Positions 15,669 through 41,630 of a stretch of DNA of 43,996 bases are shown piece by piece. A program made the position numbers and the translations under genes. Within the stretch, counting starts at the first letter, position 1, and every line of letters starts with the position of its first letter. Source of the stretch: a virus; IMG/VR virus record IMGVR_UViG_3300042400_000887, positions 1 to 43,996 of that record; one strand, 5' to 3'. The notes under the pieces are model-generated. The model saw only the letters and a list, made by a program, of their open reading frames with translations, was not told the DNA's origin and did no database searches.

Positions 15669-17384
15669 ATGCCATTCAATTCTAACCCAGAAAAACAGTT
15701 GGAGGATGCGGCATATGATTTCTTTCATTCGTCGCACGAAGCAATTTATACGGCTGATTTAGACGGTTTAATCCTAGCGTGTAACGCCAGATTAACATTG
15801 CTTACAGGTTATTCAACAGAAGAATTAATCGGTAGCCATACTAGAATGCTTAAATCGGGTATCTACGATAGCGAATTCTATAGGATTATGTGGGATTCAA
15901 TCAAAGAATATGGATTCTGGCACGGTCAGATAACTAATAGACGAAAAGACGGTTCATTCTATACCGTCATTACCACTATCACTTCTGTATATGATGCAGA
16001 CGGGACACCAATTCGATACTTATCGGTTGGTAGCGATATCACACAAATAATTGAAAATAAAAATCAGTTGGAATATTCCGCTTATTATGATAGTCTAACA
16101 GGTATACCCAATCGATTATTGTTATTGGATAGAATTAAACAATCAATTTCCTATTCAAACAGAAACAAAACTTTCGTTGCAATTCTATACATTGATTTGG
16201 ATGGATTCAAAGACATCAATGATAATCTAGGACATGATGTTGGCGATGAATTCCTGAAAGAAATCAGTCAGCGCATGAAATCAATACTCAGGGAATCTGA
16301 TACCATTGCCAGATTGGGCGGCGATGAATTTGTTATCGTATTGAACAATCTAACCGATAAAAAAGATTGTGAAGTACCCGCTAAAAAGATATTACAAATC
16401 TGTTCATCGCCAATAGAAATTGATGGTATATTACTTCAGACATCAGCCAGCATTGGTATCAGTTTTCATCCTGCAGAACCCTATGCAGTAGAAGCGGATG
16501 CATTGATTAGACAAGCTGATCAAAGTATGTACATTTCCAAGATGCAAGGCAAAAATCAATACCATATCTATGATAAGATGGAAGACGATCCAATTACCAC
16601 CAGACAGGAAATGATTGATCAGATTCATCCTTCTTTACAACGAGGTGATTTCTTTCTGTGCTATCAGCCAAAGATTAATATGATCGCGGGTGATTTGATT
16701 GGCGTAGAAGCATTGCTCAGATGGAAACACCCTACTCGCGGTATACTTGCACCAATGGAGTTTTTAAACATTATACAAAAGACGCCGATTGGTGTACAAG
16801 TATCCTGTTGGGTTATAAAGGAAGCATTGCGACAATCTTCAGTCTGGAAAGAAGATGGGTTGTATATACCCATTAGCGTTAATTTAGATCCCGTTGTATT
16901 GAGCCAATGCGATTTTGTTGATAAATTGAATACTATAATCCATCAACGCCCAAATTTTAACCCAGGCGATATTTCGTTTGAAATCCTCGAATCATCAATC
17001 ATAGAAGATAATAAAAGAGTATCTGAAATCATTGACCAATGCAAAGAAATGGGTATTACATTTGGGTTAGACGATTTTGGTACGGGATATTCCTCATTAT
17101 CCCACATCAGAAATCTTTCGATTGATCATATCAAAATTGATAAAAGTTTTGTTATGAATTTAATCCACAACCCAATCGATAGGGTTATAGTGGAAAGTAT
17201 CATCAATCTATCTAACGCATTGAATCTAACTGTTATTGCCGAAGGTGTAGAAACAGCGGAACAAGGCAGAGAACTGATTAAAATGGGATGCACGTATGCC
17301 CAAGGGTACTACATATCAAAACCAATCCTACCCGAGAAAATTCCGTTTTGGCTACGAGAATGGAAACTTTCGTCTTATTTTTGA
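15669..17384 (+). CDS. PAS-GGDEF-EAL cyclic-di-GMP enzyme
   Basis: A 571-residue soluble protein with no membrane segment. A PAS/PAC sensor (about 12-128) is followed by a GGDEF diguanylate cyclase domain (about 135-300) and an EAL phosphodiesterase domain (about 315-565). GGDEF is intact (217-221). An inhibitory RxxD site (R208-D211) lies exactly five residues before it. EAL is intact (347-349), as are DDFGTGYSS, IKIDKSF and AEGVET, so both activities look possible. Such proteins set intracellular c-di-GMP, which controls motility versus biofilm in bacteria. A complete one in a T4-like genome is unusual. A late promoter core precedes it. The PAS ligand is unknown. Confidence 0.95.
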   Translation: MPFNSNPEKQLEDAAYDFFHSSHEAIYTADLDGLILACNARLTLLTGYSTEELIGSHTRMLKSGIYDSEFYRIMWDSIKEYGFWHGQITNRRKDGSFYTVITTITSVYDADGTPIRYLSVGSDITQIIENKNQLEYSAYYDSLTGIPNRLLLLDRIKQSISYSNRNKTFVAILYIDLDGFKDINDNLGHDVGDEFLKEISQRMKSILRESDTIARLGGDEFVIVLNNLTDKKDCEVPAKKILQICSSPIEIDGILLQTSASIGISFHPAEPYAVEADALIRQADQSMYISKMQGKNQYHIYDKMEDDPITTRQEMIDQIHPSLQRGDFFLCYQPKINMIAGDLIGVEALLRWKHPTRGILAPMEFLNIIQKTPIGVQVSCWVIKEALRQSSVWKEDGLYIPISVNLDPVVLSQCDFVDKLNTIIHQRPNFNPGDISFEILESSIIEDNKRVSEIIDQCKEMGITFGLDDFGTGYSSLSHIRNLSIDHIKIDKSFVMNLIHNPIDRVIVESIINLSNALNLTVIAEGVETAEQGRELIKMGCTYAQGYYISKPILPEKIPFWLREWKLSSYF

Positions 17385-17393
17385 AAAAAGTTC

Positions 17394-17422
17394 TTGCCTT
17401 CCGTTCTGAGATGCGGTATACT
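17394..17422 (+). promoter_or_regulatory. Sigma70-type promoter
   Basis: TTGCCT (17394-17399), 17 bp, TATACT (17417-17422), preceded by the AAAAAAGTTCT extension shared with other promoters here. The transcript would begin with a 7-bp hairpin GGTAAGG-GGCGTT-CCTTGCC (17433-17452) before the 17470 gene, possibly an mRNA-stabilising 5' stem. Confidence 0.8.
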
Positions 17423-17469
17423 TATGTGCATAGGTAAGGGGCGTTCCTTGCCAACTAGGAGAGAATAAT

Positions 17470-17688
17470 ATGAAAAGATTTAAACCACTAATAGCAATAT
17501 TAATAACATTAACATCAACACCGTTTCTGGTAATATTCTATATTAGTATGTACAAATTGAGTATCCATCTAATTTCGCTGGAAACATTTGGTACACAAGA
17601 GTACATTGGTACTATTCTAGTCTGTTTTTTAACTCTTAGATTTTTAGGTAGAGCAAGACAAATACATTTTTCAAGAGATGAGGCATAA
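17470..17688 (+). CDS. Small membrane protein, two segments
   Basis: A 72-residue protein with two hydrophobic stretches (about 6-27 and 42-60) and a basic C-terminus (RARQIHFSRD). No family recognised. ATG 17470 follows CTAGGAGAG. It is the first gene of a run of small accessory genes behind its own promoter, ending just before the gp47-gp46 pair. An early host-takeover or membrane function is possible, but only from position. Confidence 0.7.
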   Translation: MKRFKPLIAILITLTSTPFLVIFYISMYKLSIHLISLETFGTQEYIGTILVCFLTLRFLGRARQIHFSRDEA

Positions 17689-17690
17689 TA

Positions 17691-18020
17691 ATGAGTAAAG
17701 TAAAACAAACACTAGAAGAAACTGCAGTCGAATTTGAAACATTTCAACAGAAATTACCTGTTGTAGAGGGCAAACCCAGTATCGCCAATTGGACGATTCA
17801 AATCAGATTCTATACAAGAGAACAGTGTTACAAATTAATTGAATTGCTATCAAAAGAACCTGTAGTGTATCCATTTAATTTTGATTGTATCTTCAACGGG
17901 GAATTTGAAGAATACTGGTTAACCATTAATGATATGCAATGGGCAACTAATCTGACTAAACTGGGTCAACTATTGGAACAATGTGATTATGGTTCGTTTC
18001 AAACTAAAGAAAGCAATTAG
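17691..18020 (+). CDS. Unknown 109-residue protein
   Basis: A mixed alpha/beta acidic protein with aromatic-rich strands (NWTIQIRFYT; EEYWLTINDMQWATN). The start lies two bases after the previous stop, so they are co-transcribed. No motif or family recognised. Confidence 0.7.
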   Translation: MSKVKQTLEETAVEFETFQQKLPVVEGKPSIANWTIQIRFYTREQCYKLIELLSKEPVVYPFNFDCIFNGEFEEYWLTINDMQWATNLTKLGQLLEQCDYGSFQTKESN

Positions 18021-18034
18021 AATTGGAGTATATT

Positions 18035-18274
18035 ATGCAAATTGATGCAACAAACATGTTTTTAGTTTATAATACCGTTACCGATATTTGTTCTGAACAC
18101 AGAATACCGATAAAACCTGAGTGGTCTTGTCCTTTTGTTCAAACTCAAGTTTATGATCAACATTCTAAAAGTTGGCGATTTATGTTTGCTAATTATGACA
18201 TAACTGATGAATTTATTATAATTTACTTTAATGTTAAAGATATCTATAAGATTTCAGTAGCGGCCGCCAAATAA
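18035..18274 (+). CDS. Unknown 79-residue protein
   Basis: Starts at ATG 18035 behind TTGGAG. The upstream in-frame start at 18023 would swallow that SD and is rejected. The sequence MQIDATNMFLVYNTV is followed by alternating hydrophobic strands and an Ala-rich end. No recognised family. Same operon as its neighbours. Confidence 0.65.
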   Translation: MQIDATNMFLVYNTVTDICSEHRIPIKPEWSCPFVQTQVYDQHSKSWRFMFANYDITDEFIIIYFNVKDIYKISVAAAK

Positions 18275-18292
18275 AAAAGACAACCGATTCTG

Positions 18293-18412
18293 ATGTATCT
18301 AACAGAAGAAAGAATCGGATGGATTTATGATGATAAAAGATTCTATATAAAGAATACGTGGCTAGATAGGAGATATTATGGAAGGTTTATTAATGACAAA
18401 GGCATCCATTAA
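18293..18412 (+). CDS. Tiny ORF, 39 residues
   Basis: Begins MYLTEERIGWIYDD and is rich in Tyr, Arg and Asp. The ribosome site is weak, and its 3' end overlaps the better-supported 18378 gene by 35 bases in another frame, so it may not be translated. It looks like the short surface peptides common in phage accessory regions. Confidence 0.35.
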   Translation: MYLTEERIGWIYDDKRFYIKNTWLDRRYYGRFINDKGIH

Positions 18413-18500
18413 CCCAACCTCGATTAGATTTATGCCAGATGGCAACACAGAAGTGTTGAGAATAGAACCGTTGGGTTCTATTCTCTGGAATGGTAGATAA
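18378..18500 (+). CDS. Tiny protein, 40 residues
   Basis: ATG 18378 is preceded by AGGAGA at good spacing, and the frame ends four bases before the next start. The product (MEGLLMTKASINPTSIRF through LGSILWNGR) has no recognised family. The clean ribosome site and spacing make it a credible gene. Confidence 0.6.
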   Translation: MEGLLMTKASINPTSIRFMPDGNTEVLRIEPLGSILWNGR

Positions 18501-18503
18501 AAT

Positions 18504-18794
18504 ATGACTCAAAAATTATTTCAACATAAACATTTAAATCATGGTAAAGATTCATATACTGTTGGCGACATTTTTGTATATGAAAGTGTATATTATATCT
18601 TAGCAGTTTCCAGTCATAATTTCGGTAGCGGAGGTTATGTTGTATTGATAAATTTATACTCAGGCGGTATTTGGGACGTCCACACATCTGTAAAAGATAT
18701 CGGTAAAATTACAGTATCGGAATTGTCTGATATTATTGGTTCTGATGTATCTAGGTTTAGATATGTTCCAAAATTAATTATCACAGAGGAATAA
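18504..18794 (+). CDS. Unknown 96-residue protein
   Basis: A beta-rich protein (YTVGDIFVYESVYYILAVSS, then GGYVVLINLYSGGIWDV) with the pattern of a small SH3- or KOW-like barrel, as in many phage 'property-of-the-moment' proteins. No confident family. Its stop overlaps the next start as TAATG. Confidence 0.7.
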   Translation: MTQKLFQHKHLNHGKDSYTVGDIFVYESVYYILAVSSHNFGSGGYVVLINLYSGGIWDVHTSVKDIGKITVSELSDIIGSDVSRFRYVPKLIITEE

Positions 18795-19144
18795 TGTTTG
18801 TAATGAAAAAGTTTAAATATTATAAAGAAGGTATTGTTTATGCTAATGATGATACTGAAGCATTAAACAAATTGAATAATGATGTTACAGAATTATGGGA
18901 AGAAGTTGAAGGTTTAGAGAGATGGGATGATGAGTTGCCAAATTCTGAACAAAAATATGTTAATATTCAGTATATTCTCGTTTCTAGTGAATATGATAAA
19001 GAACAACTATTAAAAGCATTTGAGTATATCCACGATTGTCGCGGAATTGATACAGATTATATGGCTGTAAATACAATCGCGCATTTATATCTACAACCTG
19101 ATAATATTATTGTAACCAAAGATTCTAATGAATCAATAATATAA
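18794..19144 (+). CDS. Unknown 116-residue protein
   Basis: An acidic protein with a predicted N-terminal coiled segment (EALNKLNNDVTELWEEVEGL) and an alpha/beta C-terminal half. ATG 18794 overlaps the previous stop and follows GAGGAAT. An internal ATG at 18803 is an alternative. Function not recognised. Confidence 0.7.
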   Translation: MFVMKKFKYYKEGIVYANDDTEALNKLNNDVTELWEEVEGLERWDDELPNSEQKYVNIQYILVSSEYDKEQLLKAFEYIHDCRGIDTDYMAVNTIAHLYLQPDNIIVTKDSNESII

Positions 19145-19158
19145 AGGAAAAATTAAAA

Positions 19159-19386
19159 ATGACATATACAATAGAATTGAGTAAAAACTCAATCCAAAAT
19201 TTGGATAAACAAGAATTAACTGATAGACATATTATACTCGTCAAAGTTGATGTAAAGGATATGCCGGCGCACAAAGCAATCAAATTTATGAGAGATATTA
19301 GTAAAGAATTTGCTGATAAAGTTGCTCCAGCTGAAATAATTGTCATGCCATTAGAAAATACTATCGAAGTATTTGCAAAAAAGTGA
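19159..19386 (+). CDS. Unknown 75-residue protein
   Basis: A compact alpha/beta protein (MTYTIELSKNSIQNL; then RHIILVKVDV; KFMRDISKEFADKVAP; EIIVMPLENTIEVF) with a beta-alpha-beta layout. Ribosome site AAAGGAAA. No family recognised. Confidence 0.7.
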   Translation: MTYTIELSKNSIQNLDKQELTDRHIILVKVDVKDMPAHKAIKFMRDISKEFADKVAPAEIIVMPLENTIEVFAKK

Positions 19387-19411
19387 TTATGAAACGGATT
19401 AAGGAATAATA

Positions 19412-19513
19412 ATGACTAAATTTAAAGTTCCTGGTGTAGTTGATATTGTTGAAAATTGTGATGGCGATTTAGATTGTGCCATATTTACTATCAAAAAAAG
19501 AATTTGGAGTTGA
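19412..19513 (+). CDS. Tiny protein, 33 residues
   Basis: ATG 19412 with AAGGAA upstream encodes MTKFKVPGVVDIVENCDG and ends IKKRIWS. It fits exactly between its neighbours, ending three bases before the next ATG. Unknown function. Confidence 0.5.
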   Translation: MTKFKVPGVVDIVENCDGDLDCAIFTIKKRIWS

Positions 19514-19516
19514 AGA

Positions 19517-19741
19517 ATGAAACCTAAAGTAAAATACTATTTCAATCAATTCTGTGAAGATCGGAAATTTCTGGCATTTAATGAAAGATATGATTTTATC
19601 TGGAAAGATTTTGATGATGAAGATTTAGCATGGGAAGCGTTTGTTCATCTTGCCACTATGATCCAACAACAATTTGGCACAATTAATCTTGAATTAGAAC
19701 TTCTAAAGAAATATGTAGCTATATCATCCGAGGATAATTGA
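19517..19741 (+). CDS. Unknown 74-residue protein
   Basis: An aromatic-rich acidic helical protein (KYYFNQFCEDRKFLAF; FIWKDFDDEDLAWEAF). It lies three bases before the gp47 gene, so it is probably co-translated with the recombination nuclease. No family recognised. Confidence 0.7.
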   Translation: MKPKVKYYFNQFCEDRKFLAFNERYDFIWKDFDDEDLAWEAFVHLATMIQQQFGTINLELELLKKYVAISSEDN

Positions 19742-19744
19742 AGA

Positions 19745-20800
19745 ATGAAAGCAGTTTTAATTTCCGACCAGCATATAGGAGCAAGGGAAAATAGTACCAT
19801 CATCCTTGAACATCAACGTAAATTTTATGATGAGATATTTTTTCCTTATCTGATAGAGAATAATATCAATACAGTTATTGGTCTAGGCGATTTCTGGGAT
19901 AAAAGAAAATATACCAATAATTATATTGCTGAACAAGCAAAACGATTATACTTTGATAAATTAGTTGAATATGGAATTTATCATTACATGATAGTAGGAA
20001 ATCACGATTGTGCGTTCAAAAATTCTCTATTCCCAAACACCCCAAGAACATTACTAGCTGAGTATTCCAATCTGCATATCATTGATGAGCCACAAACGGT
20101 ATCAGTTGATGGTATTGACATCGCTATGATTCCTTGGATTTGCCAAGATAATTACGATGCTTCAATGAACGAAATTGCTACGTCGAAGGCAGATATTTGT
20201 ATGCTTCATGCAGAAATCTCTGGATTTCAGATGTATCGCGGCGTTGAATCGCATGGCGGTTTATCTCAATCAATGTTCGACCGATATGATAAAGCATTTT
20301 CCGGTCATTACCACCATCGGTCAACTAAAGGCAATATTACCTATCTTGGTACGCCTTATGAACTAACTTGGCAAGATTATGGTGATCCTAAAGGATTCCA
20401 TACTTTCGACCTTGCTACTAGGGAGTTGACTTTTATTGAAAATCCGAATAAACTATTCGTTAAGATTGAATACAATGATTTAGATCAAGAACCCGTTGAT
20501 TTGAGTGGTTTACAAATCAAAGATACTTACGTAAAATTAATTGTAGTCAACAAGACCGATTTCTATAAGTATGATCAGTTCTTGAATAAATTGTATAACA
20601 AAGGTGCTTATGAGATTAAAATTATCGAAGACATCGGAGATTTCTCTACTGGCGAACTGTCGGATGACATTAAATTAGAAGATACGCAGTCTGTTCTAAA
20701 TCACTATATTGAATCAATCGAAACTGACGTTGATACTGTAAAAATTAAATCATACATTCAATCGCTTTATGCGGAAGCGTTGAACTTGGAAATGGCATAA
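19745..20800 (+). CDS. 47: Recombination nuclease subunit gp47 (Mre11/SbcD-like)
   Basis: Calcineurin-like metallo-nuclease that, with gp46, resects DNA ends for recombination-dependent replication and degrades host DNA. All phosphoesterase motifs are visible: SDQHIG (D8, H10), GDFWD (48-52), GNHD (85-88), MLHAEI (H155) and GHYHHR (187-192). The 351 residues match T4 gp47 (339). The last base of its stop is the first base of the gp46 ATG (TAATG), giving tight coupling of the two subunits. Confidence 0.96.
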   Translation: MKAVLISDQHIGARENSTIILEHQRKFYDEIFFPYLIENNINTVIGLGDFWDKRKYTNNYIAEQAKRLYFDKLVEYGIYHYMIVGNHDCAFKNSLFPNTPRTLLAEYSNLHIIDEPQTVSVDGIDIAMIPWICQDNYDASMNEIATSKADICMLHAEISGFQMYRGVESHGGLSQSMFDRYDKAFSGHYHHRSTKGNITYLGTPYELTWQDYGDPKGFHTFDLATRELTFIENPNKLFVKIEYNDLDQEPVDLSGLQIKDTYVKLIVVNKTDFYKYDQFLNKLYNKGAYEIKIIEDIGDFSTGELSDDIKLEDTQSVLNHYIESIETDVDTVKIKSYIQSLYAEALNLEMA

Positions 20801-30227: not shown

Positions 30228-30256
30228 GGGGAGTGAAATATCTCCCCTTTCTTTTT
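30228..30256 (+). terminator. Hairpin terminator, repeated GGGGAG type (copy 2)
   Basis: GGGGAGTGAAATATCTCCCC followed by TTTCTTTTT. It ends the hsp20 unit. A GTG inside it is in frame with the next gene but is not its start. Confidence 0.88.
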
Positions 30257-30596: not shown

Positions 30597-31379
30597 ATGA
30601 TTACTAAAGAACATATTAAAGCAATTTGTCCAAATAATAAAAACCCAGAGCAAATTGCAGAAGCATTAAACCATGTATTACCTGAATACGACATCGCGTC
30701 TAAAGAACAAGTCGCGTGTTTTATTGCACAAACTGCCCATGAGTCAGGTGAATACAATTGTTTAAAAGAAAACCTAAACTATTCAGCTGATGGTTTATGT
30801 CGAGTATGGCCGAAACGTTTTCCATCGAAGGATGCTGCCGCGCCCTATAACCGCAACCCTGAAAAGATTGCCAATAAAGTCTACTGCGACAGAATGGGTA
30901 ATGGCTCAGAAGCATCCGGTGATGGGTTTAAGTTTCGTGGACGTGGTGTGATTCAGCTTACGGGTAAAGACAACTATTCTAAATTTGCCAAATCAATTGA
31001 TAAGTCGTTGGATGAAGCAGTTGCATTATGCGAAACGCTTGAAGGTGCAATTATTTCTGGTTGTTATTTCTGGCAAGCAAATAAACTAGACCGATTTGTA
31101 CAGAAAAAAGATTTCGTTGGATTGACAAAAGCCATTAATGGCGGAACGCATGGTTTAGATGATAGAACCAACAAATATAAAAAAGCATTGGCTGTATTGG
31201 ATTTTGATGTATTAGAGAAACCATCAAAACCTTCGCCAGAACCAGTTAAAGTTGAAGAATCTACAGAAGAACCCGATTACGCAGATTTGGCGTTAAAATA
31301 TGCCAATGAAGTATTTGATGACATCAGTAAAGGCGTTGATGATGCATTAAGTTCTATTACTAAATTTTTCCACGATTAA
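30597..31379 (+). CDS. GH19-type endolysin
   Basis: Cell-wall hydrolase for lysis. The GH19 (chitinase/lysozyme) catalytic domain spans about residues 5-200 of 260: FIAQTAHESGEY contains the catalytic Glu (E49), LNYSADGLCRVWPKRF is the substrate-loop region, and FKFRGRGVIQLTGKDNY (111-127) is the classic motif. The C-terminal 55 residues are a Pro/Glu linker and an amphipathic helix (KYANEVFDDISKGVDDALSS), unusual for GH19 and possibly a wall- or membrane-contact tail. No signal peptide, so it should need a holin, which is found at 34221-34532. Confidence 0.93.
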   Translation: MITKEHIKAICPNNKNPEQIAEALNHVLPEYDIASKEQVACFIAQTAHESGEYNCLKENLNYSADGLCRVWPKRFPSKDAAAPYNRNPEKIANKVYCDRMGNGSEASGDGFKFRGRGVIQLTGKDNYSKFAKSIDKSLDEAVALCETLEGAIISGCYFWQANKLDRFVQKKDFVGLTKAINGGTHGLDDRTNKYKKALAVLDFDVLEKPSKPSPEPVKVEESTEEPDYADLALKYANEVFDDISKGVDDALSSITKFFHD

Positions 31380-31386
31380 TGATTTT

Positions 31387-31414
31387 GGGGAGAGTAATAT
31401 CTCCCCTTTTCTTT
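31387..31414 (+). terminator. Hairpin terminator, repeated GGGGAG type (copy 3)
   Basis: GGGGAGAGTAATATCTCCCC followed by TTTTCTTT, eight bases after the endolysin stop. It is a loop variant of the three identical 20-mers. Confidence 0.87.
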
Positions 31415-31427: not shown

Positions 31428-31580
31428 ATGAAACAAAAAAAATTAATTAAAAAAATATATTCTGCTTGTTTAGATAATGATATAGAAAAACAAACAGAAC
31501 TAAAATTAAAACAGTATAAAAAGATTCTTAAACGCAAAGAAAAGAATAAACCATTCAATAATAAATGGACTGTAATTTAG
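31428..31580 (+). CDS. Small basic protein, 50 residues
   Basis: Starts at ATG 31428 behind AAGGGAC; 50 residues, about 40% Lys/Arg (MKQKKLIKKIYSACLDN and KQYKKILKRKEKNK). It overlaps the cyclase start at 31565 by 16 bases, or by one base if the cyclase begins at GTG 31580, so the two are translated as a pair. Function unknown; nucleic-acid or membrane-surface binding is possible from charge alone. Confidence 0.6.
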   Translation: MKQKKLIKKIYSACLDNDIEKQTELKLKQYKKILKRKEKNKPFNNKWTVI

Positions 31581-33637
31581 TGAAAAAAATAGTATTATCG
31601 CCTTGGTTGGCATTATTAACATTAAGTTTAATTATTGGATTGAGAGTATCTGATCCTGATTTTATACAGAGTATTAGACTTAGATATTTTGATACTCTAA
31701 TTCTGTCTCAACCAATCAAAGAAGATAGCCAAGTTGCCATTGTTAATATAGATGATGAGTCTATACAGAAATATGGTCAATTCCCGTTTCCCCGCGATGT
31801 TTATTCAAAAATAATTACCGACTTATACGACCATGGTGCTGGTCTTGTTGTTTTTAATATTTTCACACCCGACAAAGATAGATTTGGTAAAGATGCAGTA
31901 TTCAAAGATACGTTACAGAAATTTCCTGTTATCATTCCACAAGTTGGTACTAATGATAATCTTGATTTTGGTATCCCTTTCAACCCAGGCGTTGCCGAGA
32001 TTGGTGAATCCGCGAGATTATTCGCACCGAGTTATCGAACAATACAACCTAGTATCTACAGAGAAACAATTGGCGGGATCGGAGTTATCAACACCTTGCC
32101 AGAGATTGATGGCGTTGTTAGACGAATGCCAATGCTGGTCACAGCAAATGATGTCCTGTACCCTTCAATCGCACTTGAAACGCTCAGAGTTGCTTCAGGT
32201 GATGTCAGCTTTCAAGTTAAGTCCAATGAATCTGGAATTGAAGCAGTACGAATACCACAATATGGAAAAATTGACACGGATGAATTCGGTAGAATCTGGA
32301 TTGATTGGTCACGCGAACCCAAACAATATTCTCTCCAGCATATACCAGAATCCTTCGATGGAAAGATTGTCATTGTTGGACTTTCAGCAAGAGGACTTAA
32401 TAACCCTGTTGGAACAGCAAGAGGCGGAAGATTTCCACATGACGTTCAGGGTGTCGTTTTAGAAACTATCATCAGTAACGCTAATATTGCTAGACCTGAT
32501 TGGTCGACTATTGCTGAAATTGGATTTACGCTACTATTAAGTATTATTTCATTATTATTAATTAGGTGGAAATATGGGTTTATACCTGTTATTGGAAGTA
32601 TTGCCTCTATTCATTTTGGTGCTAGTTATATTTTTAACAATTACCATTACCTTCTGGATGCTACGATTCCTATTCTGGGTATTTTTCTGGTCTATAGTCA
32701 TAGTTTTACCGTCAAATTTGTTACCGAACTAAATGCTAAATTACAAATAAAAAAACAATTTGGCGGGTACTTATCGCCGATTATGGTAGAACGATTACAG
32801 AAGAATCCTGAATTAATTAAATTGGGCGGCGAACGCAAAGAATTGTCTATTGTTATGACGGATCTCAGAGGATTTACGACATTGGGAGAATCGTTTGGCG
32901 AAGACGTTGAAGGGTTAACCTCTATTATGAATGATTACATGACCGCTATTTCAGAACCAGTATTAAAGAACGAAGGTTGTATCATAAAATTTATCGGCGA
33001 TGCTTCGCTCCATGTACACGGCGCGCCATTAGATGACAATCAACACCATTACAATGCGGTTAGAACGGGGTTAGCGATGTTAGATGCAGCGGAAGAATTC
33101 AATAAAGAATTAGAAGCAAAAGGTAAACCAAGAGTAGGTATGGGCGTTGGCGTTAATGCCGGACAAACTCTAATTGGTAACATTGGTTCTAAAACAAGAT
33201 TTGGGTATGATGTATTAGGAGATAGCGTGAGCACAGCTGCGCGACTTGAAGGGCAGACTAAACCATACGGTGTTAAAATTATTATCAGCGAATCAGTTGC
33301 TAAGGAAGTTTCTGATTACTATTTGACGTTAGAACTAGACATCGTTGCAGTCAAAGGGAAATCAATCGGTACAAGGATTTACACAGTGTTACCAATAACG
33401 GACGCTAATGGAGGACTTGACTATCTGTTAGCAGAAAAACAACATAACATTATGCTTGATTTATATCGTTCGCAAAGATGGATAGAAGCATCAATTATGT
33501 GCCACAAATTGATCGGCGAATTTGATGGTAGTATGGACGCTTATTACGAAATGTTAATTCATAGAATAGGCGAATATCAGCAAGATAACAAATTCCCTAA
33601 AGATTGGGATGGTACTTATATTAGTAAAACAAAATAA
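31565..33637 (+). CDS. CHASE2-domain class III nucleotide cyclase
   Basis: A 690-residue membrane signalling enzyme. TM1 (about 10-27) leads to a periplasmic CHASE2 sensor (about 35-310), then three TM helices (about 317-334, 338-357, 366-382), then a cytoplasmic class III cyclase domain (about 425-610). Metal ligands D433 (MTDLRGFTTLGE) and D479 (KFIGDA) are present. The adenine-selecting pair K475 and D549 fits adenylate cyclase. The transition-state Arg (R560 in AARLEG) is present, but the usual Asn is Ser (S556; GDSVSTAAR), so activity may be reduced or altered. A short C-terminal helical region follows. Host-type signalling genes of this size are rare in phages. Confidence 0.93.
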   Translation: MDCNLVKKIVLSPWLALLTLSLIIGLRVSDPDFIQSIRLRYFDTLILSQPIKEDSQVAIVNIDDESIQKYGQFPFPRDVYSKIITDLYDHGAGLVVFNIFTPDKDRFGKDAVFKDTLQKFPVIIPQVGTNDNLDFGIPFNPGVAEIGESARLFAPSYRTIQPSIYRETIGGIGVINTLPEIDGVVRRMPMLVTANDVLYPSIALETLRVASGDVSFQVKSNESGIEAVRIPQYGKIDTDEFGRIWIDWSREPKQYSLQHIPESFDGKIVIVGLSARGLNNPVGTARGGRFPHDVQGVVLETIISNANIARPDWSTIAEIGFTLLLSIISLLLIRWKYGFIPVIGSIASIHFGASYIFNNYHYLLDATIPILGIFLVYSHSFTVKFVTELNAKLQIKKQFGGYLSPIMVERLQKNPELIKLGGERKELSIVMTDLRGFTTLGESFGEDVEGLTSIMNDYMTAISEPVLKNEGCIIKFIGDASLHVHGAPLDDNQHHYNAVRTGLAMLDAAEEFNKELEAKGKPRVGMGVGVNAGQTLIGNIGSKTRFGYDVLGDSVSTAARLEGQTKPYGVKIIISESVAKEVSDYYLTLELDIVAVKGKSIGTRIYTVLPITDANGGLDYLLAEKQHNIMLDLYRSQRWIEASIMCHKLIGEFDGSMDAYYEMLIHRIGEYQQDNKFPKDWDGTYISKTK

Positions 33638-34220: not shown

Positions 34221-34532
34221 TTACTTCTTGAATGCTGTTACGCCAAGAATGGCGCCGAATGCTAAATGCATCATGCCACCGCCTTGTAATGTAACACTTT
34301 GATATGCATCAATGTTTTGACCTGGATTCAAATACTGTAATACGTTATAGATTACAGGACCAATTACGAAATCAAAAATGTTGATGATCAAGTACCCTAT
34401 TCCCATCATCGGTTTCCAGGTTCTATCCATAAAATCTCCATTTTGTATAGATTGTTCAATCTGTTCTTCAACCACTTCGCTTAAATCAACATCCTTTTTA
34501 ACTCGCGTTCTTCTCGCCTTTACTTCTGCCAT
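34221..34532 (-). CDS. Holin (3-TM, GTA-holin-like)
   Basis: A 103-residue protein. After a charged N-terminus (MAEVKARRTRVKKDVDL) and an amphipathic helix comes DRTWKPMMGIGYLIINIFDF, then a second hydrophobic span, then LQGGGMMHLAFGAILGVTAF. The W(K/R)PMM...FDF and GGG(M/L)xHxAFGAILGV motifs are those of the holins of T4-like aquatic phages, placed in the 3-TM gene-transfer-agent holin family. It would permeabilise the inner membrane to release the endolysin at 30597. It is transcribed opposite to its neighbours, with its own TATAAATA late promoter. Confidence 0.8.
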   Translation of the reverse strand: MAEVKARRTRVKKDVDLSEVVEEQIEQSIQNGDFMDRTWKPMMGIGYLIINIFDFVIGPVIYNVLQYLNPGQNIDAYQSVTLQGGGMMHLAFGAILGVTAFKK

Positions 34533-34631: not shown

Positions 34632-34684
34632 GATAAATAATCTTAGAAGTGATGTTGATGGTGTCTACGTTACACCGCACTTCT
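34632..34684 (+). promoter_or_regulatory. Late core GATAAATA and 5' leader hairpin of the flagellin-like gene
   Basis: GATAAATA at 34632-34639 is a second, late-type start signal. It is followed by a two-tier stem: AGAAGTG/CACTTCT (34645-34651, 34678-34684) enclosing GGTGT/ACACC. The leader is about 125 nt from the sigma70 start, long for this phage, and suggests post-transcriptional control. Confidence 0.55.
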
Positions 34685-34732: not shown

Positions 34733-35530
34733 ATGCCAGCTCCATTAACAATGAGTTCAGTTGTTTTACAATCTATCAACTCAACAAAAGAAGCAACAAA
34801 TCGTGTACAAACTGAATTGACCACAGGCAAGAGAACTCTTGATGCTGGTGAACAAGGTGTCGTAACTCGTTTGTCTTCTCAAGTAAATGGTTATGCCGCT
34901 GCACAAAATAACATTCAGAAATCACAAAACGTTATCAATGTAGCACAAACAGGTCTTTCAGCTATTTCAGATATTCTGTCGCAAATGAAAGATTTGGCGA
35001 ATAAAACTAACGACAATACTATGTCGGATGCTGATAAAACTAAATTGAATCAAACTTTTCAATCTCTATTGAAACAGGTTGACGATTTAGCGTCATCTAC
35101 GCAGGTTGACGGCGTTAGCGTATTGTCAAGTTCAGCAACTGATTTAAAGGTACAAACTGGTTTGACTTCAACTGATCAAATTACAGTGACTGCACAAAAA
35201 TCAGACACTACAACATTAGGTATCAACACTCTTGATATCAGTGCCACCGGCGATGCTGCTGCTGCAGTTGATGCGCTACAAACTGCGATTGATTCTGTTT
35301 CGTCAAGTCAATCAAGTTTAGCTGCTGATAAAATCGGTTTATCTGCGAGAAATAAAACTGTTCAGTCTATTTCTAGCAATCTGGAGGATACAATTTCTTC
35401 GATAGAAAAACCAAATGCTGAGCAACTTCAAATGGATTTACAAAAGTTGAACAATCAGCAATCTATTAATTATTATTTGATTAATCAGATGAATCAACAA
35501 GCACAATCAATGTTGACAATCTTCCGTTAA
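34733..35530 (+). CDS. Flagellin-like protein
   Basis: A 265-residue protein with the D0/D1 architecture of flagellins. The N-terminal helices include INSTKEATNRVQTELTTGKR and NVINVAQTGLSAISDILSQM, with the hallmark QxGLSAISDIL and an LANKTNDNT turn. There is a short beta middle and C-terminal helices with SLAADKIGLSARNKTVQSIS and QQAQSMLTIFR. It lacks D2/D3 and canonical flagellin SGLRIN and LL-R termini, so it is divergent. Outer domains absent, no signal peptide. It might be exported by the host flagellar system, jam it, or be a virion protein. ATG 34733 follows AAAGGTGA. A FliS/FlaF-like gene follows. Confidence 0.82.
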   Translation: MPAPLTMSSVVLQSINSTKEATNRVQTELTTGKRTLDAGEQGVVTRLSSQVNGYAAAQNNIQKSQNVINVAQTGLSAISDILSQMKDLANKTNDNTMSDADKTKLNQTFQSLLKQVDDLASSTQVDGVSVLSSSATDLKVQTGLTSTDQITVTAQKSDTTTLGINTLDISATGDAAAAVDALQTAIDSVSSSQSSLAADKIGLSARNKTVQSISSNLEDTISSIEKPNAEQLQMDLQKLNNQQSINYYLINQMNQQAQSMLTIFR

Positions 35531-35539
35531 TCGGTTTAA

Positions 35540-35572
35540 GGGGAGTGAAATATCTCCCCTTTCTTTTTCTTT
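35540..35572 (+). terminator. Hairpin terminator, repeated GGGGAG type (copy 4)
   Basis: GGGGAGTGAAATATCTCCCC followed by TTTCTTTTTCTTT, ten bases after the flagellin-like stop. Identical stem and loop to copies 1 and 2. Confidence 0.9.
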
Positions 35573-35583: not shown

Positions 35584-35946
35584 ATGAATACTAGAAAAGC
35601 ATTAAACGTATATGCAGAGATTGATAGTAACCTTTCGGGCGCATCATTCGAGAAGAAGTGGTTTGAATCTGTAATCATGGTACTACAACGAGTACAGAAC
35701 GGTTATTATAATCCGGTCGAATCGCATATCAAATTGATTGAAGTGTGCGATGGGTTAGGTTGGATCCAAGAGAACTTAAATGAAAAATTGAGTTCACAAC
35801 ACAGAACATTATTGAAAAGCATCTATAGCACTGCTATTCAAATTATCAATGGCGCAATCGCCACCAAGAACTTCCAGTATTTGGAAATTGTCGTCTCCTC
35901 TTTAAGAACTGTAATAGAACCTTACAATCAGCAAAATAATTCTTGA
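35584..35946 (+). CDS. Flagellin-chaperone-like protein (FliS/FlaF type)
   Basis: A 120-residue all-helical protein directly after the flagellin-like gene. The N-terminal KALNVYAEIDSNLSGASFE, followed by VIMVLQRVQNG, a LGWIQENLNEKL helix and LEIVVSSLRTVIEPY, follow the helix pattern of flagellin chaperones. These are FliS (AYQQVD...) and the alphaproteobacterial FlaF (SPRELEA...LWTIFQ). Both are about 120 residues. Similarity is by pattern only, and context is the main support. It would bind the C-terminus of the neighbouring flagellin-like protein. Confidence 0.5.
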   Translation: MNTRKALNVYAEIDSNLSGASFEKKWFESVIMVLQRVQNGYYNPVESHIKLIEVCDGLGWIQENLNEKLSSQHRTLLKSIYSTAIQIINGAIATKNFQYLEIVVSSLRTVIEPYNQQNNS

Positions 35947-35971
35947 CTTCTTAGTCGCACTAGAGTAAAAT
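35943..35971 (+). promoter_or_regulatory. Sigma70-type promoter TTGACT-17-TAAAAT
   Basis: TTGACT (35943-35948) overlaps the stop of the FliS/FlaF-like gene. Spacer 17, TAAAAT (35966-35971). A sister promoter lies at 36778 and a lone -35 at 37081. Confidence 0.8.
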
Positions 35972-36019
35972 TGAATCATAGGTTGATCGCAGCGGTTGAC
36001 TCTGTTACTGGAGATAATA

Positions 36020-36235: not shown

Positions 36236-36236
36236 T

Positions 36237-36578: not shown

Positions 36579-36579
36579 T

Positions 36580-36771: not shown

Positions 36772-36777
36772 AAGTAC

Positions 36778-36806
36778 TTGACTTCCTAGTCCTAGTCTAG
36801 TAAAAT
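36778..36806 (+). promoter_or_regulatory. Sigma70-type promoter TTGACT-17-TAAAAT
   Basis: TTGACT (36778-36783), 17 bp, TAAAAT (36801-36806), upstream of the 36894 gene. Nearly identical in form to the one at 35943. Confidence 0.8.
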
Positions 36807-36893
36807 TGATCTATAGGTTGGGTTGACCACCCTGACTCTTATCGAAGATTAACGGTATAATGAATCATACTTAAAGAAAAACTGGAGAGAAAA

Positions 36894-37073
36894 ATGAACT
36901 TTGATAAAGATTTTACCGACCTGACTATGTTCAATTTTGGCGTTGTTGTTGTGTATAACGAATCTATGCAGATTAACCTACCAAAAACTGGTTATCCGTT
37001 GTATGATGCGTTTGGTTACAAAATTGGGTTTTCGTATCCACGCTGGTTCAAAAATCTTTTTAAAATTGTTTAA
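36894..37073 (+). CDS. Unknown 59-residue protein
   Basis: ATG 36894 behind CTGGAGAG. MNFDKDFTDLTMFNFGVVVV then FGYKIGFSYPRWFKNLFKIV, aromatic and hydrophobic with an amphipathic basic C-terminus. Last plus-strand gene before the curli operon. A lone -35 (TTGACT at 37081) follows its stop. Confidence 0.6.
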   Translation: MNFDKDFTDLTMFNFGVVVVYNESMQINLPKTGYPLYDAFGYKIGFSYPRWFKNLFKIV

Positions 37074-37080
37074 AAAGTGC

Positions 37081-37086
37081 TTGACT
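37081..37086 (+). promoter_or_regulatory. Orphan promoter -35 (relic)
   Basis: TTGACT in the same post-stop context as 35943 and 36778, but no -10 lies 17 bp on (ACAGAT at 37104-37109). The last curli-operon gene's stop begins two bases later, as if the promoter had been cut at the cassette boundary. Confidence 0.5.
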
Positions 37087-37087
37087 T

Positions 37088-37549
37088 CTAATTACCTTGC
37101 GTTACAGATATCGGCGCGCACCCACCAACGGTAGAACAATTAAAATTGATTGAATAATATTGACTGGAATTGCCAGATTGGGTTAAATTTACCTCAACTG
37201 GCGTTCCGGATAATGAAATAATTGCGGTATGGTCGCCAATACCTTGTTGTAATGTATTAACAGACTTATTACTTCCCGATAACGTTACGTTCAATGTATG
37301 ATTACCGGAATCTTTCTGTTGTGCTATTACAGAGTTATTGCTACCATTATTAGTAACATCGATCTGCTTTGTGCCTGTACCCATTTCCTCTAAATCATAA
37401 TAATTATAATTACCATTGGTATAAGCGTTAACAGATTTATTTGTGTTACCTTCTTGCGTAACAACTGTTTCATTATATGCGCCAATTTGTTCGATGTATA
37501 CATCTGATGCATAAACATTGAAACTAATTAATAATAATATCCATTTCAT
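37088..37549 (-). CDS. Curlin-repeat secreted protein (CsgA/B-like) 2
   Basis: A 153-residue secreted protein. The signal peptide MKWILLLISFNVYA is followed by curlin repeats with Q-x4-N-x5-Q spacing, for example YIEQIGAYNETVVTQEGNTN, then N/G/T/S-rich strands (SNNSVIAQQKDSGNHTLNV; GSNKSVNTLQQGIGDHTAI). Curlins stack as a beta-solenoid amyloid on the cell surface. Two Cys near the C-terminus (NCSTVGGC) are uncommon in curlins. It is the last gene of the operon, and its ATG overlaps the FecR-protein stop. Confidence 0.82.
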   Translation of the reverse strand: MKWILLLISFNVYASDVYIEQIGAYNETVVTQEGNTNKSVNAYTNGNYNYYDLEEMGTGTKQIDVTNNGSNNSVIAQQKDSGNHTLNVTLSGSNKSVNTLQQGIGDHTAIISLSGTPVEVNLTQSGNSSQYYSINFNCSTVGGCAPISVTQGN

Positions 37550-38634
37550 TTTTGTTTCAATACTCCATTATTTTGTTTTATATTAATAATATTCCCACCT
37601 GGACTACCATCACCAATTAATATTGATGCTGGTACATCATCTTGGATAATTGTAATCAGACTATTAGAATTGTATCCTTGAGTTTTGACTTCGGAATAAT
37701 GTTCCACTCCTGATACCCTAAACGCGATACCAGAACCCTTTAATTGGGTTTCATTAGTATCAGGTCTCTGCCACAATACACAGACATTAGTTGTGGGATT
37801 GCAGTTGGTTTTATTGGCATAATCAATCATCTGTAATAATCTAGCATCTTCGGTTTCATTCAAACTATTGGCAATTTTACCCGCCATGCGTCTAGATGCA
37901 TCCGCGTCATCGAATTCTGCATCTTGTTCTTGTTTGGTCTTAGATGATGCCTTTACTGCCTTCTGTACTTCTGCTGGCTGAACAATGATCAAATGATTAC
38001 CAATATTCCCTTCGACTGTATTGATAATAGCGGGTATTGTCGGTAATCTAGTTGCACTTTGTACATAAGTTGCCTGAAATGCTTGGTCTAATGATACTTT
38101 ACCTGCCAGAGTTTCAACATCAATCTTACCGACTTTACAAGTATTTTCTTCCAACTCATATTCCTTTACTTTTTCATCGGGTTTACAGCTCGGTAATAAT
38201 ACGATTAATGATTGACCTGTTTCGTCGATTGTCATTGTGAAATCGGTACCACGAACAGCAATTGTAGCAGTTGGCGTTTGTATACCGACTTGTTGTGGAT
38301 TATTCTTAGCAATTTGACCCGATGCATATCTGACAGTACCCATTGCCACTTTTAATACCAATTTACCTGCATCACTTTTCTTAGTATCAAACACAAAATC
38401 ATCAATCAACAATTTACTATTCTCGGTGATTTTCGCCTTTGTATCATCTTTGAATACGATATTACCAACACAATTACCTGTGATATAAGTATCCATACTT
38501 TCAATGGTTGAACCTTTATCGCCCGGTAATTTTTGTTTATTTCGTTCTATCTGACATCCTGTGCCTTTAGATTCAACCACAGAACCAATATCTGCTATCA
38601 CATTAAGTGATACCAATATCAACAACCATTTCAT
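37546..38634 (-). CDS. Secreted FecR-domain protein
   Basis: A 362-residue protein with signal peptide MKWLLILVSLNVIA, almost identical in layout to that of the next curlin gene. Residues about 25-190 form a FecR-type beta domain (FVFDTKKSDAGKLVLKVAMG, VRYASG, TPTATIAVRGTDFTMTI). The distal part has charged helices and a final strand region (NIINIKQNNGVLKQ) rather like a curlin repeat. FecR domains occur in cell-surface sensing and in secreted matrix proteins. Here, within the curli operon, it may anchor or nucleate fibres. Five or more Cys are visible. Confidence 0.8.
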   Translation of the reverse strand: MKWLLILVSLNVIADIGSVVESKGTGCQIERNKQKLPGDKGSTIESMDTYITGNCVGNIVFKDDTKAKITENSKLLIDDFVFDTKKSDAGKLVLKVAMGTVRYASGQIAKNNPQQVGIQTPTATIAVRGTDFTMTIDETGQSLIVLLPSCKPDEKVKEYELEENTCKVGKIDVETLAGKVSLDQAFQATYVQSATRLPTIPAIINTVEGNIGNHLIIVQPAEVQKAVKASSKTKQEQDAEFDDADASRRMAGKIANSLNETEDARLLQMIDYANKTNCNPTTNVCVLWQRPDTNETQLKGSGIAFRVSGVEHYSEVKTQGYNSNSLITIIQDDVPASILIGDGSPGGNIINIKQNNGVLKQK

Positions 38635-39413
38635 TATCGTGCAATGGCAGTTTGTGGGTTAACAATCGCACTAGAACTGGTTCTGACAGTAACTGTATTA
38701 TGGTCACCTGTAGTTCTAATATCGACGGTAGTATCATTAGTGCCTTGCTGTTGCACTATATTGGAGTTATAATCACCCGCAATGTATTGTTTCAAATCAT
38801 GACCGAATGCACCAGCAGAATCTAATTGTTCATCAATTAGAATATTAGTATTACCCGTAATTGCTATATTGGATTTACCATTAGAACTTTTTAAATTATT
38901 GGTAATCTGATTTGAATTGCCCGTAGTAACAATTGTGCTGGTAATATCGCTCCCCAGTAATGTCTGTAGTATTAAATTAGTATTACCGGTAATTGTTTCT
39001 GAGATAATATTTCTAAGATTATTTGTATTAGCATCACCTAATAATAACTTACTCATATTGTCATTACCTGACACTGCACTAGTATATTGGTTATTACCGC
39101 CTTTTATATTATACTGCGCCCAGTTATTAGTACCATGTTGGGTGATGGTAGCTGTATTTGAACTACCGTTAATTGACCCATAATTCAAAGAACTTGGAGC
39201 ATCAGGCGTTAAAGTGGTAATATTATCAGAATTTGATACGCTGATATTACCATTAGAACCACCCACATTATTAGTTCCGCCAACCTGTTCAATAGTAATC
39301 GTATTAGTGTTTCCGACTTGTTCTATGTAAACAAGATTTGGATTTGTGGCGTTGTCTGCGTTTATGTTTTGACTTATCACAAGTAGCATAATCAAACTTA
39401 TTAGATTTTTCAT
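38634..39413 (-). CDS. Curlin-repeat secreted protein (CsgA/B-like) 1
   Basis: A 259-residue protein with signal peptide MKNLISLIMLLVISQNINA and about ten imperfect repeats rich in G-(N/D)-x-N, such as YIEQVGNTNTITIEQVGGTN with exact Q-x4-N-x5-Q spacing, and TGNTNLILQTLLG. This is the beta-solenoid amyloid pattern of CsgA/CsgB. It starts within the last 110 bases of csgG in a different frame, and its stop overlaps the next ATG. It could be the main fibre subunit or nucleator. Confidence 0.86.
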   Translation of the reverse strand: MKNLISLIMLLVISQNINADNATNPNLVYIEQVGNTNTITIEQVGGTNNVGGSNGNISVSNSDNITTLTPDAPSSLNYGSINGSSNTATITQHGTNNWAQYNIKGGNNQYTSAVSGNDNMSKLLLGDANTNNLRNIISETITGNTNLILQTLLGSDITSTIVTTGNSNQITNNLKSSNGKSNIAITGNTNILIDEQLDSAGAFGHDLKQYIAGDYNSNIVQQQGTNDTTVDIRTTGDHNTVTVRTSSSAIVNPQTAIAR

Positions 39414-40305
39414 CTATAATTTCCTTGTTTAAATTATCATCTTGAAGTTTTACATGCTCTTGGGTTTCAATAACTTCCTTTTCTTTCATTATAATTGGCG
39501 TCATAGATTCAGTTTTATATGACCAATGACCTTTTCTAATACCTTCTTTAATAGTTTCCAACACTGCAGATTGGATCGCTTTATTGGTGGCACGATTGAT
39601 ACTTTCATTAATAGAGCCGCCAATCTCTGCTTCAACTGACATAGTACCGGCATCCATGAATTTCAATACACCAATTTTATCCAAATAACTCAGCACAGTT
39701 TTGGTAATTGTAACTGATGTTAATACTTCGCCTGTCGTTACCGATACTGTTCTGAGATTAATAGTCACTGTATCGCTTTGATATTGAGTTTCGCCGCCAA
39801 TACCAAAAAATCGAACACCAGCGCCGCCTGTTACTGTATTTGAATCGTAACCCGTAATCGAACCTTCAAAAATGATGCCAGCAAATATCATGGGTGGTAG
39901 ATGTTGGGCATCTTTACCTTGATACTGTTCCCGCATTTGTCGAATCATCTGACGTTCTTTGATTAGATTTTCTAACCCAACTCGTTCAACCACAGTAAAC
40001 CATCGACCATCACCCACATCTTGTAATGCTTTGATTAGGTAACCTTCTCCGCCTTGCGTAACAGCAGAACTCAATGAAGCAATATTAGGTATTGATTTGC
40101 GCTGACCCGTTTTATCTTGAAATGCATACACGCCAACGGGTATTGGTCCACCCGATGGTGGTAATAGTACATTTTCTTCTTTATGCAAAAAGGTTGATTT
40201 TTCTACGGCTGGATCATCAAATTGTTCGCCAGTAATCAATTTGTGGATAGCACTACTAGTAGCACATCCTTGTAGTAATAAAAACAATAAAAATAATCGT
40301 TTCAT
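39304..40305 (-). CDS. csgG: Curli secretion pore lipoprotein CsgG-like
   Basis: Outer-membrane nonameric channel that exports curli subunits. A lipoprotein signal ends LLQGC (C14). The conserved CsgG domain runs to about residue 265: PVGVYAFQDKTGQRKSI, WFTVVERVGLENLIKERQMI, AGIIFEGSITGYDSN, then RTVSVTTGEVLTSVTITKTV. E. coli CsgG is 277 residues. This one is 333, adding about 65 residues whose last 36 (Lys/Arg/His-rich) overlap the curlin gene in another frame. It lacks CsgE in the operon. Ribosome site AAAGGAT. Confidence 0.94.
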   Translation of the reverse strand: MKRLFLLFLLLQGCATSSAIHKLITGEQFDDPAVEKSTFLHKEENVLLPPSGGPIPVGVYAFQDKTGQRKSIPNIASLSSAVTQGGEGYLIKALQDVGDGRWFTVVERVGLENLIKERQMIRQMREQYQGKDAQHLPPMIFAGIIFEGSITGYDSNTVTGGAGVRFFGIGGETQYQSDTVTINLRTVSVTTGEVLTSVTITKTVLSYLDKIGVLKFMDAGTMSVEAEIGGSINESINRATNKAIQSAVLETIKEGIRKGHWSYKTESMTPIIMKEKEVIETQEHVKLQDDNLNKEIIDEKSNKFDYATCDKSKHKRRQRHKSKSCLHRTSRKH

Positions 40306-40314
40306 TTTAATCCT

Positions 40315-40785
40315 TTAAAATGCGAAAGAACCTGCTGGCACTTTCATAGTAGTAGTCTGGGATAGATTACTGTTATTGGTAATATCAATGATGATCAATC
40401 CAGCGTCAGAACCAGCACCCAAAGACCAAGATACTGAATTTCCACCTAAATCTGGTATAGAACCACAGACTATGCCAGTAACTGTACAAGTAGCACCATC
40501 AGAAAACATAGAATCGGTCAATTGTTTTGCTAACTGCGAATAGATTCTTGATTCAAGATTAGCTAGAAATTTCGCTTGTGGGGTATTCAATGCTGCTGAT
40601 TCTGCCTCAGCTTTTATAGCATCGGTTGCTGCTTTATTCTTATCAATGGCTTGAGTTTCCAATTGATTGATGGTTAGAACGTGAGAACTGTAACCTGATC
40701 CAGAGAATGAAGGCGAATTGAATGTGTGCGTTAATTCTGCAGAATGAACAGAAGTGCTTAATAATAGAAGTAGCCAATATCTCAT
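40315..40785 (-). CDS. csgF: Curli assembly factor CsgF-like
   Basis: A 156-residue secreted protein. Signal peptide MRYWLLLLLSTSVHSA, then ELTHTFNSPSFSGSGYSSHV, matching the CsgF N-terminus (TFxNPxFGG) that plugs into the CsgG pore and links it to the fibre. A helical FLANLESRIYSQLAKQL segment and a beta C-terminal part (SDAGLIIIDITNN; TTTMKVPAGSFAF) follow as in CsgF. Two Cys (CTVTGIVC) are extra. It is coupled to the upstream membrane-protein gene by ATGA and precedes csgG. Confidence 0.85.
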   Translation of the reverse strand: MRYWLLLLLSTSVHSAELTHTFNSPSFSGSGYSSHVLTINQLETQAIDKNKAATDAIKAEAESAALNTPQAKFLANLESRIYSQLAKQLTDSMFSDGATCTVTGIVCGSIPDLGGNSVSWSLGAGSDAGLIIIDITNNSNLSQTTTMKVPAGSFAF

Positions 40786-41042
40786 TTCTTATTCTCCTTT
40801 TGAGCATTCTCGCGCATCTGCAAAACAGTATTGAGTTTTGCTGTAAGTCGAAGTAAATCGTTGTCGAGTAACCGTATTCTATCAATAAGCGTAATCAATT
40901 CTTTTGACGCTTCGCCGAGAACTGGGTTAATTTCATTAATGGTAAAATCCCAAACATGTTTGACCATTTTCAGCATAAAAAATGATGAAACTATTGGAAA
41001 ACCATACTTTGAAATAAGTTCTGATAACTGAGTAATGTCCAT
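40782..41042 (-). CDS. Small single-TM protein (BhlA/UviB-like) 3
   Basis: An 86-residue protein from ATG 41042; the longer frame from 41096 overlaps the previous gene. One hydrophobic segment (YGFPIVSSFFMLKMVKHVW) lies near the N-terminus and is followed by a long coiled coil (ITLIDRIRLLDNDLLRLTAK). This is the layout of BhlA/UviB-type holin-like proteins. It is the third of three similar genes. Confidence 0.65.
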   Translation of the reverse strand: MDITQLSELISKYGFPIVSSFFMLKMVKHVWDFTINEINPVLGEASKELITLIDRIRLLDNDLLRLTAKLNTVLQMRENAQKENKK

Positions 41043-41046
41043 AAAT

Positions 41047-41331
41047 TTAATCTCTGCGGCAATCGTTCTTTCCGTCTGATCTAGCAATCCTGTCAAGATC
41101 AGGTCTCAATCCCATAACAGATGATATTGTTACGTCAATTTTAATCAACTCATGGGAACATGTTTTAACACGATTCTCTAATGCCATTACAATAGACGCT
41201 AATGTTCTGACTGAAGTGATTATGTCGCCAAGCACAAACTTTAATGCCGTAAAAATAAACCCGCCAGCAGCACAACTTCCTAATATTGGCGTCACGACAT
41301 CAGAAAAAAACTTTACGTATTCTTGATCCAT
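41047..41331 (-). CDS. Small single-TM protein (BhlA/UviB-like) 2
   Basis: A 94-residue protein with MDQEYVKFFSDVVTPILGSC then a hydrophobic GGFIFTALKFVLG segment and a coiled C-terminal region (LASIVMALENRVKTCSHELI). It has the same layout as the flanking proteins at 41331 and 40782, so the three look like tandem duplicates. Its ATG overlaps the previous stop (TAATG). May form inner-membrane assemblies for the operon. Confidence 0.65.
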   Translation of the reverse strand: MDQEYVKFFSDVVTPILGSCAAGGFIFTALKFVLGDIITSVRTLASIVMALENRVKTCSHELIKIDVTISSVMGLRPDLDRIARSDGKNDCRRD

Positions 41332-41630
41332 TACGATGCCTTATTCATTACTTGGTGAACTTGATGGTGTATTTTTTCTGGGAGTGGTTCAACGTACAAC
41401 GATTTTGAGACTAGTTGGTCGAGTTCAAGAACATCTATATTCATCTGTTGAACTCTACCATCCATCGATTTAATCAATCCAGTAATTTTTTTAATTGATT
41501 TGACGATTGATCCTAGCACTAAGTTCACTGCTTGCATGATGAACCATCCGCACACGACTGCTAATGCGATTGGGAATCCACATGCTTCAACTAACTGGAA
41601 GAAATCAAAATTAGGTATACCAATGTCCAT
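41331..41630 (-). CDS. Small single-TM protein (BhlA/UviB-like) 1
   Basis: First gene of the minus-strand operon, 99 residues. A hydrophobic helix (CGFPIALAVVCGWFIMQAV) sits after a short acidic N-terminus (MDIGIPNFDFFQLVEA), followed by a long amphipathic coiled coil. The G-F-P-I-A motif and single TM are typical of BhlA/UviB bacteriocin/holin-like proteins. The start lies 17 bases after copy 3 of the 63-bp repeat. Role with curli genes unproven. Confidence 0.65.
   Translation of the reverse strand: MDIGIPNFDFFQLVEACGFPIALAVVCGWFIMQAVNLVLGSIVKSIKKITGLIKSMDGRVQQMNIDVLELDQLVSKSLYVEPLPEKIHHQVHQVMNKAS

Follow-up and report, generated by a model that had tools for sequence, protein, structure and literature searches.

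T4-like cyanophages carry psbA and other host genes. A module combining curli genes (the type VIII secretion system) with FecR and an adenylate cyclase has been described in myo- and podo-pelagiphages and in methylophages (PMC9599517, PMC7029224, PMC9004378); in the Pelagibacter phage HTVC008M and the Methylophilales phage Melnitz, CsgF, CsgG, a curlin-repeat protein, FecR, a second curlin-repeat protein, and a CHASE2 cyclase lie together as one block. Prophages encoding TldR carry a flagellin, FliCP, and lysogeny swaps the host filament (PMC13418256). Here we analyze a 43,996-base virus record, IMGVR_UViG_3300042400_000887 (the window, meaning the whole of this stretch), a fragment of a T4-like phage genome that holds a curli–FecR–adenylate cyclase set, a PAS-GGDEF-EAL protein, and a flagellin gene followed directly by a gene for a FliS-like export chaperone. 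The first of these is already known in phages, and the flagellin–FliS cassette in a T4-like phage is the new part. The features that bear on the cassette and on the GGDEF-EAL protein are as follows.

34733..35530, plus strand: flagellin, 265 amino acids, D0-D1 only (Flagellin_N match, structure model)
35584..35946, plus strand: putative FliS-like flagellin export chaperone, 120 amino acids (fold; conserved place downstream of flagellin)
34633..34639, plus strand: ATAAATA late-promoter-like motif before flagellin (motif scan)
35538..35561, plus strand: terminator hairpin whose 20-nt core recurs exactly at 3704 and 30228 (sequence comparison)
15669..17384, plus strand: PAS-GGDEF-EAL protein, 571 amino acids, a host-type cargo (domain matches, motifs, homologs)
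15631..15637, plus strand: ATAAATA late-promoter-like motif before the GGDEF-EAL gene (motif scan)

The window is part of a T4-like phage genome. Terminase, tail sheath, tubes, portal, protease, scaffold, major head protein, and late sigma factor are all present, as are the replication genes UvsW, clamp (gp45), clamp loader (gp44), and gp46/47-type genes, so that head, tail, replication, and late-transcription functions are each represented. UvsW (~48% identity) and the clamp loader (~60%) resemble those of marine cyano- and pelagimyophages; a near-DNA search with the window in phage records gave no match, and searches of the window for tRNAs and against Rfam returned nothing. A preliminary description had proposed that the phage carries cyclic di-GMP (c-di-GMP), cyclic AMP (cAMP), flagellin, and curli functions, and all four gene classes are present where it put them, as confirmed by domain matches (GGDEF/EAL, cyclase, flagellin, curli). 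Its placement of them in the late half of the genome was wrong: the cargo genes are interspersed with replication genes (uvsW, gp47/46, gp45/44), and the window is only a fragment.

The flagellin matches Flagellin_N (9e-19) and, slightly under the cut-off of that family, Flagellin_C (2.7e-4). Its model matches flagellar filaments over the full length with D0 and D1 termini intact, so both terminal regions and the D0-D1 fold of a bacterial flagellin are there. The 120-residue protein encoded directly after it, which the preliminary description had overlooked, is predicted to have the fold of FliS. An AlphaFold model (mean pLDDT 78) searched with Foldseek returned FliS flagellin chaperones as all of its top eleven matches, and VIA-align Z scores against FliS ran from 15.3 down to 12.8, above the 11.6 of the first unrelated bundle. 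The predicted helical bundle thus agrees with FliS, and the gene adjoins flagellin both in the window and at seven Methylococcales loci. FlaF had been considered as the identity of this gene; the fold search favored FliS. When solved structures were searched with a profile of the 120-residue family, the only matches were chance ones, to an unrelated viral glycoprotein.

A bacterial counterpart of the cassette is found in methanotrophs. The genome collection yielded a single flagellin relative, on a contig (L173) of a metagenome-assembled genome of Crenothrix polyspora; it is 58% identical over nearly the full length, and a homolog of the 120-residue gene (64% identity) follows it in the same order and at similar spacing. 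This FliS-like gene occurs in 7 of 301 Methylococcales genomes, always immediately after a flagellin of this type. Flagellar operons, which we take to be flgB-flgJ or fliL-fliR from the starts of the translated open reading frames, adjoin four of these loci; the contigs with the remaining three are short. A second Flagellin_N gene in the Crenothrix genome is, by length and neighbor, probably the hook-associated protein FlgL. The phage and Crenothrix pairs also share a hairpin between the two genes, and the phage copy differs in having the phage's own terminator and a late-promoter-like motif.

These phage-type signals bear on how the cassette is used. The shorter motif ATAAATA was examined in place of the strict T4 late promoter TATAAATA. 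There are 11 copies on the plus strand and one on the minus strand; 10 of the 11 plus-strand copies precede a plus-strand start by no more than 130 nt, and the genes so marked include sheath, tube, portal, and scaffold. One copy ends 32 nt before the start codon of the EAL gene and another 94 nt before that of flagellin; none precedes the adenylate cyclase or the curli genes in the window. The 20-nt terminator core after flagellin (35540) recurs letter for letter at 30228 and, behind the sheath gene, at 3704; a variant is found at 31387. With the late-promoter-like motif in front of it and a terminator core shared with the sheath gene, flagellin appears to be built into phage expression. Of the promoters and terminators that had been claimed for the cargo genes in general, the promoter-like motifs of the EAL and flagellin genes and the terminator of flagellin stand, and the cyclase and curli genes are without the motif. 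The preliminary interpretation is supported in part, in that its genes are real with complete domains and some of them have phage-type regulatory signals.

The same signals weigh on two explanations of a different kind. The cassette has been seen in one record only, as would be expected if a bacterial flagellin–FliS piece had been joined to a phage contig during assembly. However, a host cassette fitted with phage signals speaks against a chimera: bacterial flagellin–FliS gaps mostly hold hairpins too, but of different sequence, whereas the core found in the gap here recurs exactly elsewhere in this phage; the late-promoter-like motif lies upstream; and the neighboring gene at 34221 has homologs in related phages. 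Such an artifact is the least probable of the explanations we considered. The motif and the sheath-type terminator would also suit a flagellin turned into a structural or lysis-related protein of the phage that no longer enters the flagellum. That is very improbable as well, because the adjacent FliS-like chaperone would then have no role, the protein is 58% identical over nearly its full length to a flagellin from a flagellar cluster, and flagellin is absent from the related phages searched.

We favor, with a probability of roughly 0.55, the reading that this is a T4-like phage of a Crenothrix-like methanotroph with three separately acquired cargos: the common phage curli–FecR–adenylate cyclase module, whose curli and cyclase genes lie on opposite strands in the window; a host-type PAS-GGDEF-EAL protein; and a host-derived two-gene flagellin–FliS cassette used late in infection. 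Once host gene expression is off, the phage would make flagellin together with a chaperone to bring it to the export gate of the host flagellum, and the filament would be maintained or altered with phage-encoded subunits, while the GGDEF-EAL protein would change c-di-GMP in the same period. Motility might thereby be kept, or the surface changed against competing phages. The host, the late expression, the export into the host filament, the filament change, and any benefit are all predicted from the genes.

Several observations weigh against this reading. The best Foldseek E-value for FliS is only ~8e-3, and none of the eight members of the 120-residue family has a Pfam match. Searches of phage records and viral contigs found the flagellin and the FliS-like gene in no record besides the window. 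Because the terminator precedes the FliS gene, transcription of that gene would depend on read-through or on a separate promoter. ATAAATA was picked after inspection of the sequence, so its statistics are indicative only, and the strict promoter TATAAATA is not enriched, with one match per strand, fewer than expected. The host is proposed from the cargo rather than from spacers or culture, and expression and export of the cassette are likewise read from gene content.

The cassette may instead act against the flagellum: phage flagellin and FliS would compete with those of the host for the export gate, or would absorb flagellotropic competitors, and the host would lose its filament or have it masked. 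The late-type signals and the strong terminator would fit high expression, and one phage flagellin is known to take the place of the host filament (PMC13418256). Yet with D0 and D1 termini intact, a normal assembling subunit is the simpler reading, a matching chaperone favors productive export, and the TldR system has given no evidence of defense against flagellotropic phages (PMC13418256); we regard jamming or a decoy as unlikely. The TldR prophages resemble the present phage in that a phage genome carries a full-length flagellin able to replace or join that of the host. They differ from it in that this phage is T4-like rather than temperate, a FliS-like gene is adjacent, and the flagellin is a minimal D0-D1 form; no match to tldR (a TnpB-like gene) was found among the open reading frames scanned near flagellin in the window, itself a fragment. 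A word search for phage flagellin in two papers, one on methanotroph phages (PMC7674155) and one on jumbo phages (PMC7824862), returned none.

The second cargo also appears to be of host type. The protein encoded at 15669–17384 has strong matches to GGDEF (2e-45), EAL (1.5e-64), and PAS (5e-16), and its catalytic motifs are intact (GGDEF at 217, the I-site RxxD at 208, EAL at 347, DDFGTG at 468, KID at 489, and EGVE at 525). As both sites are intact, the sequence does not tell whether c-di-GMP would be made or broken down. Copies that are 99% identical exist in two other viral contigs (L004 and L005), and the gene is thus not an assembly accident. Bacterial PAS-GGDEF-EAL regulators such as MorA share the core domain order and the catalytic motifs; the phage protein differs in having only 571 residues, whereas its best Methylococcales homologs (48%–50% identity, 301 genomes) are in open frames of at least 944. 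The genomes ranked second to fourth for these homologs (G254, G188, and G252) are three of the seven with the flagellin–FliS pair. A hand calculation of the chance that three of seven fall in the top four of 301 gives ~3e-5, a guide only, as the genomes may be close relatives. The two cargos point to one host group, and the phage probably infects a Crenothrix-like methanotroph (Methylococcales).

The gene sits between late sigma/AAA genes and a gp47-type gene, in a gap whose contents vary among relatives. Two relatives lacking EAL (L029 and L035) have no ATAAATA at this position. Where the window holds EAL, L029 has instead a 258-residue secreted protein with a PEP-CTERM-like tail (3812–4588).

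The remaining cargo comprises the curli–FecR genes and the cyclase, listed here with their neighbors.

31565..33637, plus strand: CHASE2-class III adenylate cyclase, 690 amino acids, with Ser at the transition-state Asn position (domain match, motif reading)
37088..37549, minus strand: CsgA2, second curlin-repeat protein (weak Pfam match)
37546..38634, minus strand: FecR-domain protein of the curli module (FecR 2e-8)
38634..39413, minus strand: CsgA1, curlin-repeat protein (curlin repeat 9e-6)
39304..40305, minus strand: CsgG outer-membrane curli pore (CsgG 3e-49)
40315..40785, minus strand: CsgF (CsgF 3e-7)
40782-41096, 41047-41331, and 41331-41630, minus strand: three small related membrane-type proteins just upstream of csgF (one weak holin match)
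30597..31379, plus strand: GH19-type endolysin, neighbor of the adenylate cyclase

CsgF, CsgG, the curlin-repeat proteins, and FecR are thus found together, and with the cyclase they make up the same set of genes as the module of HTVC008M and Melnitz. The window differs from those phages in the opposite strands, in reassortment, and in the added GGDEF-EAL and flagellin–FliS cargo, which is unseen in relatives. CsgD and CsgE did not turn up among the annotated genes of the window, although no search was aimed at them. The first curlin gene shares 110 nt with csgG (39304–39413), the two being read in different frames.

The cyclase is clearly recognizable (CHASE2 3e-38, cyclase 7e-19), and the metal-binding Asp, the adenine-binding Lys and Asp, and the transition-state Arg are present (TDLRGF, IIKFIGDA, YDVLGD..AAR). 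The transition-state Asn matters for catalysis in class III cyclases. It is Ser in the window and in 43 of the 51 readable phage copies (53 phage homologs), and Asn is kept in four readable Methylococcales homologs. Synthesis of cAMP by this Ser variant is therefore predicted but not to be assumed. At most 36% identity to the Methylococcales homologs argues that the enzyme is of phage lineage. In two relatives (L009 and L017, ~11716–12741), an interruption of ~1 kb, which may be an intron or an inserted endonuclease, splits the cyclase gene between residues 577 and 589.

In three relatives (L006, L007, and L009), the curli operon is bordered by a GH19-type endolysin gene and three holin-like membrane genes; in others, the membrane genes sit beyond the cyclase on the other strand. 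A link to lysis is thus possible. Neither curli genes nor a cyclase was found behind the endolysin position in the stretches examined from the closest backbone relatives.

The preliminary description had taken the four functions as one coordinated program turning a motile host into an adherent or aggregated one, and had named independent gain and loss across relatives as the test. All classes do fall in a 26-kb span of one phage, phage curli have been suggested to act in aggregation (PMC7029224, PMC9599517), and part of the set travels together. Among 77 csgG loci, FecR is kept in 75, and an adenylate cyclase lies within the stretch examined in 55, always on the strand of csgG (55/55) and 2.4–9.0 kb downstream. 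In the window, however, the two are on opposite strands. L103, the nearest relative by its curli genes (CsgG 80%), is further off in its cyclase (50%), and L007, the nearest by its cyclase (66%), has a distant CsgG (46%), which indicates that curli and cyclase have been reassorted.

GGDEF, EAL, and flagellin do not follow this module. Neither GGDEF nor flagellin was found in 50 large relative records (40 chosen by CsgG, ten by the gp47-type gene), and EAL likewise in 0 of 50; flagellin was also absent from all 50 of a partly overlapping set chosen by the gp47-type gene, and CsgG from all 50 records selected by the phage's own gp47-type gene. Among 18 earlier records, GGDEF occurred in the window and two near-identical contigs only, and flagellin in the window only. 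Many of these records are fragments, and any one absence therefore carries little weight, but the overall count and the large genomes (HTVC008M, Melnitz, and the 141- and 146-kb contigs) point the same way. With these absences from relatives carrying curli or cyclase, the differing nearest relatives, the opposite strands, and the lack of the motif at cyclase and curli, the cargos were acquired separately and are not inherited as one circuit. The direction of the proposed switch is doubtful too, as flagellin with an export chaperone suggests supplying or replacing a filament rather than stopping motility, and Melnitz cultures showed no clumping (PMC9004378). A single program is accordingly highly improbable.

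As in T4-like cyanophages, a T4-like phage would be supplying a host protein during infection; here it would be a surface filament protein with its chaperone, of predicted function. We offer more tentatively that the phage may keep or rebuild the host flagellum with its own flagellin and export chaperone and set c-di-GMP with an enzyme of the same late regulon, which would be a motility counterpart of the photosynthesis genes in cyanophages. The co-occurrence comparison separates a conserved phage module (curli, FecR, cyclase) from host-derived cargo, and the latter offers a link, open to testing, between an uncultivated phage and Crenothrix-like methanotrophs, which oxidize methane in lakes. 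If the favored reading is right, infection would include an active program for the host's flagellum, in a setting beyond the TldR prophages from which phage flagellin has so far been described.

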